A stretch of DNA of 64,000 nucleotides from Georgenia ruanii (GTDB lineage Bacteria > Actinomycetota > Actinomycetes > Actinomycetales > Actinomycetaceae). Below, piece by piece: positions 57,730 through 63,041 of the stretch (position 1 is the stretch's first letter; the number at the start of each line of letters is the position of its first letter). The stretch spans positions 62,001 to 126,000 of the forward strand of contig NZ_VUKE01000010.1 of assembly GCF_009193175.1 (NCBI RefSeq), in the 5' to 3' direction. The notes below the pieces were generated by a model. That model worked only from the letters and a program-made list of their open reading frames with translations. It searched no databases and was not told where the DNA came from. The position numbers and the translations under genes were made by a program.

Positions 57730-59052
57730 CTACGCCCGCGCCGGCAGCGGCGGCAGCTCGGGCCGGTCCAGCCAGGCGGTGAGCAGGTCCGCGACGGCTT
57801 CGGCCCGCCGCTCGCCGCCGGACCGCGCGGCGTGCTCGCCCGCCAGGGCGCGGAAGTCCGCCGTCGTGACGCTGCGGCCGGCGAAGCGGTCCGTCCAGTC
57901 CCGCACCAGCGCGAAGAACGCCTCCTCGCCCAGGGTCAGGCGCAGGGCGTGCAGGGCCAGGGCGCCGCGCTTGTAGACCCGGTCGTCGAAGATGTTCTCG
58001 GGCCCGGGGTCGGCCAGCACGAGGTCCTCGTCCAGCCCGGCGAGTCGCTCGTGCCAGGTGCGGGCGAGGGCGTCGGTGTCCGGGCCGCCGGCGTGGGGGG
58101 ACCACAGCCACTCCGCGTAGCAGGCGAAGCCCTCGTTGAGCCAGATGTGCTGCCAGGTGGCCACCGAGACGGAGTTGCCGAACCACTGGTGCGCGAGCTC
58201 GTGCGGCACGAGCCGCTCGTCGCCGTCGGCCGGGTCGACGTGGTTGGCGCCGAAGACCGAGATGCCCTGCGCCTCGACCGGGATCTCGAGGTCGTCGTCG
58301 GTGAAGACGAGCGTGTAGGCGTCGAACGGGTAGGGCCCGAAGAGCCGGGCCAGCTCGGCCACGAGCTCACCGTGCCGGGCGAGCAGCCGCGCCGCGTCCT
58401 TGCGCAGCGCGGCCGGCACGAGGGCCCGCTGGGGCACCGGCCGGTCGGCGAGCGTGACCTCCTGGTACCGGCCGATCTGCACGGTCGCGAGATAGGCGGC
58501 GGTGGGGTGGCGCTCCTCGTAGACCCAGGTGGTGGTGCCCGCCCGGGCCGTGCGCGCGACCAGCTGGCCGTGGGCGAGGACGTGGTAGGCGCTCTCGGTG
58601 GTCACCGCGGTGCGGTAGGTGGCCCGGTCCGCGGGCCGGTCGTTGCAGGGGAACCATGACGAGGCCCCGATCGGCTGGCTGGCGACCAGGGCGCCGTCGG
58701 TCAGCTCCTCCCAGCCCACGGTGCCCCAGGCGCTGGGCACGGGCTCGGGGTGCCCCTCGTAGCGCACCGACACCTCCAGCAGGTCCCCCGCCGCGACGGG
58801 GGCGGCCAGCCGGAGCCGCAGCCGGTCGCCGCGGTGGCTGTACCGGGCCAGCTCGGCGCCGGCGACGCTGACCGCCTTGACCCGCAGCCCGGCCAGGTCG
58901 AGCACCACCGCGCGCAGGTCCGTCAGGGCCCGCACGCGCAGCCCGGCGGTGCCCGCCAGCCGGTTGCTGGCCACCCGGTAGGACAGGTCCAGGTCGTAGT
59001 GCTCGACGTGGATGTCGCCGGACCCGTGCGGGTCGTACGGGTCGGTGCTCAC
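57730..59052 (-). CDS. M1-family zinc aminopeptidase coupled to the NRPS
   Basis: The 440-residue metallopeptidase has H284-E-L-A-H288 with E307 as third zinc ligand (HELAHQWFGN ... LNEGFACYAEW). The usual GAMEN exopeptidase motif is replaced by VEAQGIS at 259-265. It lacks the long C-terminal helical domain of PepN, so it is a short M1 member. No signal peptide or membrane helix is seen, so it is cytoplasmic. The GTG start overlaps the NRPS stop (GTGA). Epsilon-poly-lysine producers have zinc aminopeptidases that degrade their own polymer; a similar role is possible here but is inferred. Confidence 0.88.
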   Translation of the reverse strand: MSTDPYDPHGSGDIHVEHYDLDLSYRVASNRLAGTAGLRVRALTDLRAVVLDLAGLRVKAVSVAGAELARYSHRGDRLRLRLAAPVAAGDLLEVSVRYEGHPEPVPSAWGTVGWEELTDGALVASQPIGASSWFPCNDRPADRATYRTAVTTESAYHVLAHGQLVARTARAGTTTWVYEERHPTAAYLATVQIGRYQEVTLADRPVPQRALVPAALRKDAARLLARHGELVAELARLFGPYPFDAYTLVFTDDDLEIPVEAQGISVFGANHVDPADGDERLVPHELAHQWFGNSVSVATWQHIWLNEGFACYAEWLWSPHAGGPDTDALARTWHERLAGLDEDLVLADPGPENIFDDRVYKRGALALHALRLTLGEEAFFALVRDWTDRFAGRSVTTADFRALAGEHAARSGGERRAEAVADLLTAWLDRPELPPLPARA

Positions 59053-62000: not shown

Positions 62001-63041
62001 CGGCTCGCCGGGCTCGAGCCGGGCGGCGCACGCGATGACGGTGGCCTCGGTGGGGCCGTAGGTGTTCCACAGCTCCCGGTCCGGGCGCGCCAGGCGGGTG
62101 GCGAGCTCGGCCGGGATCGCCTCGCCGCCGAAGATCAGCAGCCGCACGCCGTCGAGGGAGTCCACCGGCCACATCCCGGCCAGCGTCGGGACGGTGGAGA
62201 CCACGGTGATCTCGCGCTCGTGCAGCCACGGGCCGAGGTCGGTGCCGGTGCGCACGAGCGCGCGGGGGGCGGGCACCAGCGCGGCGCCGTGACGCCAGGC
62301 CAGCCACATCTCCTCGCAGGAGGCGTCGAAGGCCACCGACAGGCCGGCGAGCACCCGGTCCGCGGGGCCGATGGGGGCGTCGGGGAGGAACAGGCGGGCC
62401 TCGGCGTCGACCAGGGCGGCGGCGCTGCGGTGGGTGACCGCCACGCCCTTGGGGCGCCCGGTGGAGCCGGAGGTGAAGATGATCCAGGCGTCGTCGTCGA
62501 GGCCGGGAGGCTCGGGCGACTGCGGCGACCGCGGCGACCGCGGCGACTGCGGCGGCTCGACGGCTCCGGCCGCGGCGGATGGTCCAGACGCCATGGCGAG
62601 GGGCCACGGCCCCGCCGGGCGCCGTGACCAGGTGGTGCCGTCGGGGCGGGTGAGGTGGCCGTCGTCGTGGACGACGCCGAGGACGCCCGCCTCCTCCCAC
62701 ACCAGCGCCGCGCGCTCGTCGGGGTCGTCGGCGTCCACGGGGACGTAGGCGGCCCCGGCGTGCAGGACGGCGAGGATGGTCAGGTAGAGGTCGACCGTGC
62801 CGGAGGTGGCGCGCACGCCCACCCGGTCCCCGCGCCGCACGCCGGCCGCGGCCAGCCGGGCGGCGCGCGCCTCGACCGCGCCGCGCAGCGCGGCGTAGGT
62901 GAGCTCCTCGTCGCCGTCGTCGATCGCCAGGGCGGTGGGGTGCCGCTCGGCGGTGGCGCGAAACACGTCGACGAGGGTGCGCGGGGCCGGGGCACGCGAC
63001 CCGGCGAGCAACGGGTCGAGCGCGGTGCGCGAGGGTGTCAC
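59049..63041 (-). CDS. Pls/PosA-type membrane nonribosomal peptide synthetase
   Basis: The 1330-residue protein has an adenylation domain (about 20-530; A3 core IIFTSGSTGRPKG 187-199, NTYGPTE, YRSGDLV), a carrier domain with the phosphopantetheine Ser in HGGSSL about 569, then six predicted membrane helices interleaved with three hexapeptide-like soluble domains (for example IGRIVVGPRATVGARSVLYPG and LGPHGVILPAAVLGAGSCVGPG). Condensation and thioesterase domains are absent. This is the layout of epsilon-poly-L-lysine synthetase (about 1320 residues), which polymerises one amino acid at the membrane. The substrate here is unknown. The GTG at 63041 was chosen because it starts close before the domain; upstream in-frame ATG at 63170 is possible. 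Confidence 0.92.
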   Translation of the reverse strand: MTPSRTALDPLLAGSRAPAPRTLVDVFRATAERHPTALAIDDGDEELTYAALRGAVEARAARLAAAGVRRGDRVGVRATSGTVDLYLTILAVLHAGAAYVPVDADDPDERAALVWEEAGVLGVVHDDGHLTRPDGTTWSRRPAGPWPLAMASGPSAAAGAVEPPQSPRSPRSPQSPEPPGLDDDAWIIFTSGSTGRPKGVAVTHRSAAALVDAEARLFLPDAPIGPADRVLAGLSVAFDASCEEMWLAWRHGAALVPAPRALVRTGTDLGPWLHEREITVVSTVPTLAGMWPVDSLDGVRLLIFGGEAIPAELATRLARPDRELWNTYGPTEATVIACAARLEPGEPVRIGLPQDGWDLAVVDAAGQPVAEGETGELIIGGVGLARYLDPALDAAKFAPVPALGWERAYRSGDLVQLDRAGLVFVGRADDQVKVNGRRIELGEVDAALLALPGVGAAAAAVKHTAAGTAVLVGYVVPAGPDGLDTTVLLDALREELPASMIPLLAVVEEIPTRTSGKVDRDALPWPLPGLGATERVSALTGTAAWIGEQWAAVIGVHPAGPEDDFFSHGGSSLTAAQLVSALRVRYPEVTVAEVYRYPEVGDLAAHLEATYPAPDATAADLGTAPVPRPVPVGSQAAQLLALVPLRTLVALRWLTALAAMNNVLAWAWQVPWALPVSWWWVAAGWLLTVSPLGRMGVSALGARLLLAGVGPGAYPRGGAVHLRLWAAERLAEGFGAVTTATAPWVGLYARALGARVGRGVDLHAVPPVTGLLTLGRECAIEPEVDVSGHWVDGDVLRIGRIVVGPRATVGARSVLYPGARVGAGTDVAPGSAVHGRTGEDEYWAGSPAARVHSARHPWPPERPAAPRGWVAAYAAGAAVVAALPVLAVAVPLVLVGLAVRGAPTLAAAAGPALLAGVGATALAYLLYALAVVAGVRLLATGLTEGFHPVRSRVGWQAWCTERLMDSARTALFPLYSSVVTPAWLRLLGAKVGDDVEASTVIGLPSMMRVKTGAFLADDTMVAPYELGGGWVRVARAKVGRRAFLGNSGMTAPGRTVPKNGLVAVLSATPAKTRAGSSYLGSPPVLLPRAATLDDGERTYSPPARLRRARGAVEAARAVPALLVGVLALGIVLALQAIVLAAGWGAAAALGGVVLLGAGAVAGLLTVAAKRVLVGRVRPGEHPLWSAFVWRGELADTFTEMLAAPFLADAVTGTVALVWWLRGMGARIGRGVWLQTYWLPEADLVRLGDGAAIGPGCVVQTHLFHDRIMSLDTATLDPGATLGPHGVILPAAVLGAGSCVGPGSLVMRGEGVPASTRWAGNPISPWHEEAT
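62511..62550. repeat. Short 9-bp tandem repeats inside the NRPS adenylation domain
   Basis: Copies of GGCGAC(C/T)GC and near variants encode a Ser-Pro-Arg/Gln repeat at about residues 165-178, in the linker just before core motif A3. Confidence 0.7.

Follow-up and report, generated by a model that had tools for sequence, protein, structure and literature searches.

The window, by which we mean the whole 64,000-nucleotide stretch of Georgenia ruanii DNA that was analysed, lies on a contig of a 4.42 Mb genome. It carries a gene for a Pls-type synthetase followed directly by a gene for a zinc peptidase of the M1 family (Table 1). The two genes overlap by four bases, GTGA (59049–59052), the last two bases of the peptidase GTG being the first two of the synthetase stop; the earlier observation that the second gene starts inside the stop codon of the first is thus borne out.

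Table 1. Genes of the synthetase locus, in coordinates of the window
Feature	Position	Strand	Remarks
ACPS-superfamily phosphopantetheinyl transferase (PPTase)	55378..56088	+	Pfam ACPS; convergent
CYTH-CHAD protein	56106..57689	-	40 bases after peptidase, same strand
PldII-family two-domain M1 zinc peptidase	57730..59052	-	440 aa; Pfam Peptidase_M1 and Peptidase_M1_N
Pls-type cationic homopoly(amino acid) synthetase	59049..63041	-	GTG start; 1330 aa; A-T-(membrane segment(s) + hexapeptide-like domain) x3; code DAESIGTVIK

Domain Architecture of the Synthetase

Pfam places an AMP-binding domain at residues 27–386, a carrier domain at 545–607 and a single Hexapep match on the synthetase; none of the four Pfam families matched is a condensation or thioesterase domain. 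The NCBIfam model of the Pls/PosA terminal domain (TIGR02353) covers residues 637–1322 with 675.8 bits against a cut-off of 423.1. The protein thus shows the Pls architecture, an adenylation (A) and a carrier (T) domain followed by an NRPS terminal domain, with neither condensation nor thioesterase domain. In the hydropathy profile, hydrophobic segments precede each of three soluble blocks, the first weak (1.65), the second and third strong; segments 443–461, 1200–1218 and 1286–1304 reach about the hydropathy of the first, weak one, though they are not expected to cross the membrane. Pfam, TIGR02353 and hydropathy together agree with the sequence-only reading, which had described an A-T-(membrane/hexapeptide)3 protein of this length.

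A structural model of the C-terminal part has a pLDDT of 80.6, with lower values in the first and third soluble blocks. Foldseek searches with this model gave weak matches, and among the 50 listed of 325 almost all were acetyl- or acyltransferases (best E 7.1e-04). The modelled helices could fit pairs; known Pls enzymes have six membrane segments, arranged as three pairs around three soluble domains. Judging from the model, the synthetase may carry paired membrane helices ahead of each soluble block. In such an arrangement, as far as hydropathy indicates, every soluble domain would lie on the same side as ATP, so that the polymer would be made facing the cytosol.

Substrate Code and Predicted Monomer

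The ten A-domain code positions, placed by motif on what we take to be the general A-domain pattern, are D239, A240, E243, S282, I303, G305, T327, V335, I336 and K517; the alignment confirms the code previously read by eye. The solved A domain of epsilon-poly-L-lysine synthase (7WEW), presumably the S. albulus enzyme, has the code DAESIGTVVK, which differs from the window code at one position, and 323 of 475 aligned positions (68%) are identical between the two A domains. Compared with Pls, PosA and related enzymes, as the sequence-only reading had proposed, the window code is of the lysine type, one step from 7WEW. In the passages of PMC10522769 that deal with the PosA pocket, position 2 is taken to govern side-chain length, Met going with ornithine, Ala with lysine and Phe with the short diamino acids, and the amine of the side chain is bound by the Glu at position 3. 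The window A domain possesses the lysine-type pocket (Asp1, Ala2, Glu3); its Ala240 is neither the Met of PosA nor the Phe of PDAP/PDAB synthetases.

Over its full length, the synthetase shares 53–54% identity with its counterparts in five genomes near 7WEW (L184–L188). Of these, L184 serves as a proxy, with 94% A-domain identity to 7WEW, and gives 53% over 1318 aligned positions. For comparison, excerpts of PMC8117764 set the criterion for this enzyme at 40% identity or more, over 80% of a confirmed Pls, and report production of epsilon-poly-L-lysine (epsilon-PL) by a Corynebacterium variabile enzyme that has 51% identity to the Pls of S. albulus. Given Ala and Glu in the code, and an identity of 53–54% against the 51% of that enzyme, lysine is the likely monomer.

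A synthetase of the same family could also build its polymer from another diamino acid (ornithine, diaminobutyrate, diaminopropionate or beta-lysine), which we consider improbable here. This alternative draws on position 9, which touches the side-chain amine in PosA (S313; PMC10522769, in part), so that Ile in the window might shift the preference. Ile was found there only in four same-genus synthetases: that of the window, L042, L043 and L045, the last three coming from a set of five further Pls of the genus. Val occupies the position in 79 of 80 named loci (the best 80 of at least 589 relatives), the lone Ile being from the same Georgenia as L045, and in 49/49 further loci picked for likeness to 7WEW; a usable code was not obtained for L053 and L054. 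However, the exchange of Val for Ile is conservative, and position 2 has the Ala of the lysine type rather than the Met or Phe described in the same part of PMC10522769. In addition, the genome possesses a separate synthetase of the DFE code, accompanied by dat and ask genes, and the peptidase partner tracks the lysine-code group. We dropped the idea of a new polymer class, since a single conservative exchange separates the code from that of lysine-type Pls and the family has been described before.

The separate synthetase matches TIGR02353 with 649.7 bits and has the code DFECLSVVTK, with Phe at position 2. Ahead of it lie genes for an aspartate kinase (ask; NF005155, 462.4 bits against 346) and a diaminobutyrate transaminase-family protein (dat; TIGR00709, 458.2 bits against 401.6), a context which the legend of Fig. 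1 in PMC8117764 describes for gamma-poly-diaminobutyrate synthetases. By code and context this second enzyme is probably for poly-diaminobutyrate, and hence the strain may make two cationic polymers.

In a quick tree of 39 rows, the window synthetase groups with same-genus lysine-code synthetases (six rows, 100% SH-aLRT) within 31 lysine-code rows. The synthetase L203, despite its lysine code, falls beside L035 and L044, two rows of the second-synthetase kind, at a meeting of long branches; bearers of the code thus do not make up a single clade.

Active Site of the Peptidase

The peptidase possesses the HExxH motif and the third zinc ligand Glu. Residues H284, E285, H288, E307, Y360 and E260 are invariant in 98/98 peptidase rows, L184–L189 included. 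At the site of the GAMEN motif the window protein reads IPVEA; the Glu is invariant (98/98), and it is followed by Ala in 89 rows, Asn in six and Ser in three. The sequence-only reading of a zinc M1 peptidase lacking GAMEN is therefore correct as to the literal motif and the zinc site, but the Glu of the motif is kept, and we rejected the notion that aminopeptidase chemistry has been lost with it. The protein is only 42–44% identical to the compared peptidases of the genomes nearest 7WEW, and it matches the profile of PldII by its place (directly after pls, with a 4-nt overlap) and by its M1 zinc site.

Conservation of the Gene Pair

The sequence-only reading had tied its fate in part to a pairing conserved in related genomes, and the pair proved to be kept at each range examined. 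We examined 20 stretches that surround Pls/PosA matches in genomes of the genus, the family and the order, 11 of the Pls type and 9 others. An M1 gene adjoins the synthetase in 11/11 Pls-type relatives, and a close M1 match is absent from 9/9 paralogue stretches searched, although in one of them, L052, a 25% match to M1 lies upstream. The 80 named loci, which as the best 80 of at least 589 relatives lean towards close kin, have M1 at most 1500 bases downstream in 79 cases, and in 47 of these 79 paired loci a possible start codon lies at the same 4-base overlap. The remaining locus, L105, has its M1 gene further down (synthetase stop at 10879, M1 match from 13046). L045 and L055 are one locus, the two records L079 and L080 come from a single species, and other named or unnamed loci may likewise coincide.

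Across the class, 394 genomes were sampled. A Pls A domain was matched at E 1e-150 or better in 94 of them, counting that of the window, and in 89 of these 94 the synthetase is followed on its own strand, within 6 kb, by one of the 92 strongest M1 matches. These 92 rows reach down to E 6.2e-142, weaker rows having been left out; the cut was set after seeing that the next row (2.6e-128) came from a genome with no listed Pls match. Five genomes depart from this: G285, G079, G428, G193, whose M1 match is on a different contig, and G423, whose match sits at another place in the genome. In the other direction, 91 of these 92 rows fall in the 94 Pls genomes, and the last one, from G192, also has Pls alongside.

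These counts bear on the idea that the M1 enzyme is a housekeeping aminopeptidase which lies behind pls by chance and leaves the polymer untouched. The M1 fold is general, and weaker M1 matches are widespread (184/394 genomes at E 1e-70); moreover, inactivation of pld and pldII is reported in a passage of PMC8506220, citing Yamanaka 2010, to leave production and polymerisation unaffected. However, by plain comparison of counts, so common an M1 background would not place the strongest match next to pls in 89/94 genomes, and the S. albulus enzyme reportedly degrades epsilon-PL (passages of PMC8117764, PMC9223678 and PMC9205021). We give this idea little credence. On the role of the peptidase itself, published results conflict, since inactivation was without effect and repression of pldII by CRISPRi changed chain length and tolerance (PMC9223678, in part).

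Neighbouring Genes

The gene for a PPTase noted earlier as Sfp-type is real, as its ACPS match indicates, but it lies on the other strand from the pair. PPTase matches occur in 15/80 named loci (again the best 80 of at least 589 relatives) and in 5/20 of the relatives' stretches. It was therefore rejected as an operon member and belongs to the neighbourhood, not the core; activation of the carrier domain by its product is plausible. The beta-oxidation neighbours (thiolase, acyl-CoA oxidase) showed no link and were dropped as pathway members.

The CYTH-CHAD gene was overlooked in the sequence-only reading. CHAD binds polyphosphate, and a putative polyphosphate-binding protein encoded on the same strand just downstream of the peptidase could in principle handle a polycation as the third member of a three-gene unit; the same gene stands in the same place in L043. 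As this is 1/11 Pls-type relatives, with no CYTH-CHAD in the stretches of the other 10 and 0/80 in the named loci (the best 80 of at least 589), a conserved third gene was rejected and such a unit is very unlikely.

Leader-Bearing and Leaderless Peptidases

Among 392 genomes searched of genus g76, which we take for Streptomyces with the S. albulus clade because of its likeness to 7WEW, 22 have the A domain closest to 7WEW (E 1e-225 or better). An M1 gene was found in 20 of these, the stretches fetched for L222 and L223 giving no M1 match. A Tat-like leader, consisting of a twin arginine and a hydrophobic stretch, starts 19 of the 20 peptidases (6/6, then 13/14 by eye), L214 being the sole leaderless case. 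By the same features, no Tat-like start is present in the window peptidase (by eye) or in 104 other rows (91 and 13, the latter by eye). Within the 91, three (L037, L072 and L115, the last with a doubtful start) pass a loose hydropathy test with no twin arginine, and five (L076, L087, L101, L109 and L123) have a twin arginine with no hydrophobic stretch. Leaderless peptidases also occur in the same genus as the 22 genomes (L190–L194).

Hence, from these N-termini, the pls-linked M1 peptidase seems to come in a leader-bearing and a leaderless form, and that of the window may be cytosolic. If synthesis faces the cytosol, as suggested above, a leaderless peptidase could meet the polymer there. 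We tentatively propose, at slightly less than even confidence, that the common leaderless form, that of the window included, works within the cell on polymer that is nascent or misreleased, and that the exported, surface-bound PldII is a derived form of the S. albulus clade. If true, most pls carriers guard against polylysine, or use it, in the cytoplasm and not only outside. The literature searched, which did not include the original PldII paper, contained no report of a cytosolic leaderless peptidase.

Proposed Pathway

Domains, code, gene overlap, conserved pairing and kinship with 7WEW-type Pls and its adjoining peptidase were all observed at this locus. With these features, the pair is very probably a Georgenia epsilon-poly-L-lysine-type synthetase with a PldII-family peptidase, a member of the known pls-pldII system; the lysine substrate, the product, the action and mode of the peptidase and its cytosolic location are what we infer from them. 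The A domain would adenylate L-lysine with ATP, and the lysyl residue would be loaded on the phosphopantetheine of the carrier domain, itself activated by a PPTase, perhaps the nearby one. The three membrane-linked hexapeptide-acyltransferase-like domains would then join lysyl through the side-chain amine of free lysine or of the growing chain, yielding epsilon-poly-L-lysine. The coupled M1 peptidase would cut this polymer, protecting the producer or recycling lysine. In epsilon-polylysine each residue keeps a free alpha-amine beside the scissile carbonyl; the conserved Glu of the peptidase may hold this amine, and cutting at any bond could be allowed by an open cleft between two domains. An alpha-amine at every bond and an open cleft would explain the endo-type action reported for PldII.

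Among the readings considered, a pathway for an isopeptide-linked homopolymer of one amino acid with a built-in degrading enzyme, as originally proposed, is the best one; the novelty it implied does not hold, since S. albulus and Corynebacterium offer precedents. The locus extends a known antimicrobial-polymer pathway to another genus, and the two peptidase forms make the purpose of the coupled peptidase testable: self-protection outside the cell, clearing inside it, or control of chain length.

Comparison with Known Systems

Within the family, PosA of Acinetobacter baumannii (delta-poly-L-ornithine synthetase) shares the A domain, carrier and membrane terminal domain with the window synthetase. 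In contrast to the Ala at position 2 and the coupled peptidase found here, its code is DMEHNGTVSK and its operon is of a single gene, as given in passages of PMC10522769. The peptidase, in turn, was set beside the two-domain M1 zinc metallopeptidase of Deinococcus radiodurans (6IFG, 6A8Z), whose residues around the GAMEN position differ from those of the window peptidase.

Corynebacterium variabile, whose likeness to the window is known from its published description, has an operon of a synthetase and a pldII-homologous peptidase (PMC8117764, in part). According to the same passages, its synthetase gave epsilon-PL when expressed in S. coelicolor, and no polymer was detectable from C. variabile itself in culture or from C. 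glutamicum with its gene. Since C. variabile itself has no detectable polymer, the window gene may likewise be silent.

The closest described arrangement is that of S. albulus, where pls and pldII form one operon with a 4-nt overlap (excerpt of PMC4361855) and are translationally coupled (excerpt of PMC9223678). As judged from the proxy genome G606, it has in common with the window the gene order, the 4-nt overlap, a synthetase with A, T and three tandem domains, and the peptidase downstream. This published arrangement, the TIGR02353 match and the likeness to 7WEW support the original assignment of the layout to epsilon-poly-L-lysine synthetase. The window differs from the S. albulus type in the Ile instead of Val at code position 9, at the synthetase identity to the five genomes near 7WEW given above. 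Its peptidase is also shorter, at 440 aa with no Tat-like leader against 467 aa in G606. S. albulus PldII is reported outside the cytoplasmic membrane, and the window protein would be a PldII relative that differs in this respect, if truly cytosolic. The layout of pls and peptidase being already described and common, the Georgenia pair is a new instance of it, not a new system.

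Second synthetase of the G. ruanii genome

The same assembly carries a second Pls/PosA synthetase (locus L035), possessing the adenylation code DFECLSVVTK. Genes of the aspartate kinase and diaminobutyrate transaminase families lie upstream of it, and an ABC transporter ATPase gene is located 1.6 kb downstream; this is probably a poly-diaminobutyrate cluster.

Coordinates of features discussed in the text
Feature	Position
Second Pls/PosA synthetase cluster, own genome	L035:2871-10558 (contig C30, about 84870-92557)
CYTH-CHAD protein gene	window 56106-57689
Divergent TrkA-C domain protein gene, then beginning of a further open frame	window 63131-63998
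Code position 9, Ile336 of the window synthetase	window 62034-62036

Neighbourhood of the pls pair

A gene encoding a CYTH-CHAD protein occupies the same place beside pls in the window and, among the relatives compared, only in the same-genus locus L043; it may represent a third gene of the operon. As in the window, a TrkA-C match adjoins pls in L045, another locus of this genus.

Variation among related loci

No M1 match was found in the stretches of two synthetases with codes beginning D-A-E-S, L203 (genome G079) and L202 (G428). In the tree, the former clusters with the L035 paralogues and the latter has a very long branch. Genome G040 encodes extra partial Pls/PosA-like open frames (L053 and L054; 941 and 861 aa) as well as a full Pls-M1 pair.

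Among the lysine-code loci listed, position 9 of the code is Ile only in four same-genus synthetases (window, L042, L043 and L045) and Val throughout the remainder. A Tat-like leader is found neither in the window peptidase (57730-59052) nor in 104 other pls-linked M1 rows inspected; the pls-linked M1 peptidase possesses one in 19 of the 20 genomes (among L184-L189 and L210-L225) nearest 7WEW, the solved epsilon-poly-L-lysine synthetase adenylation domain.
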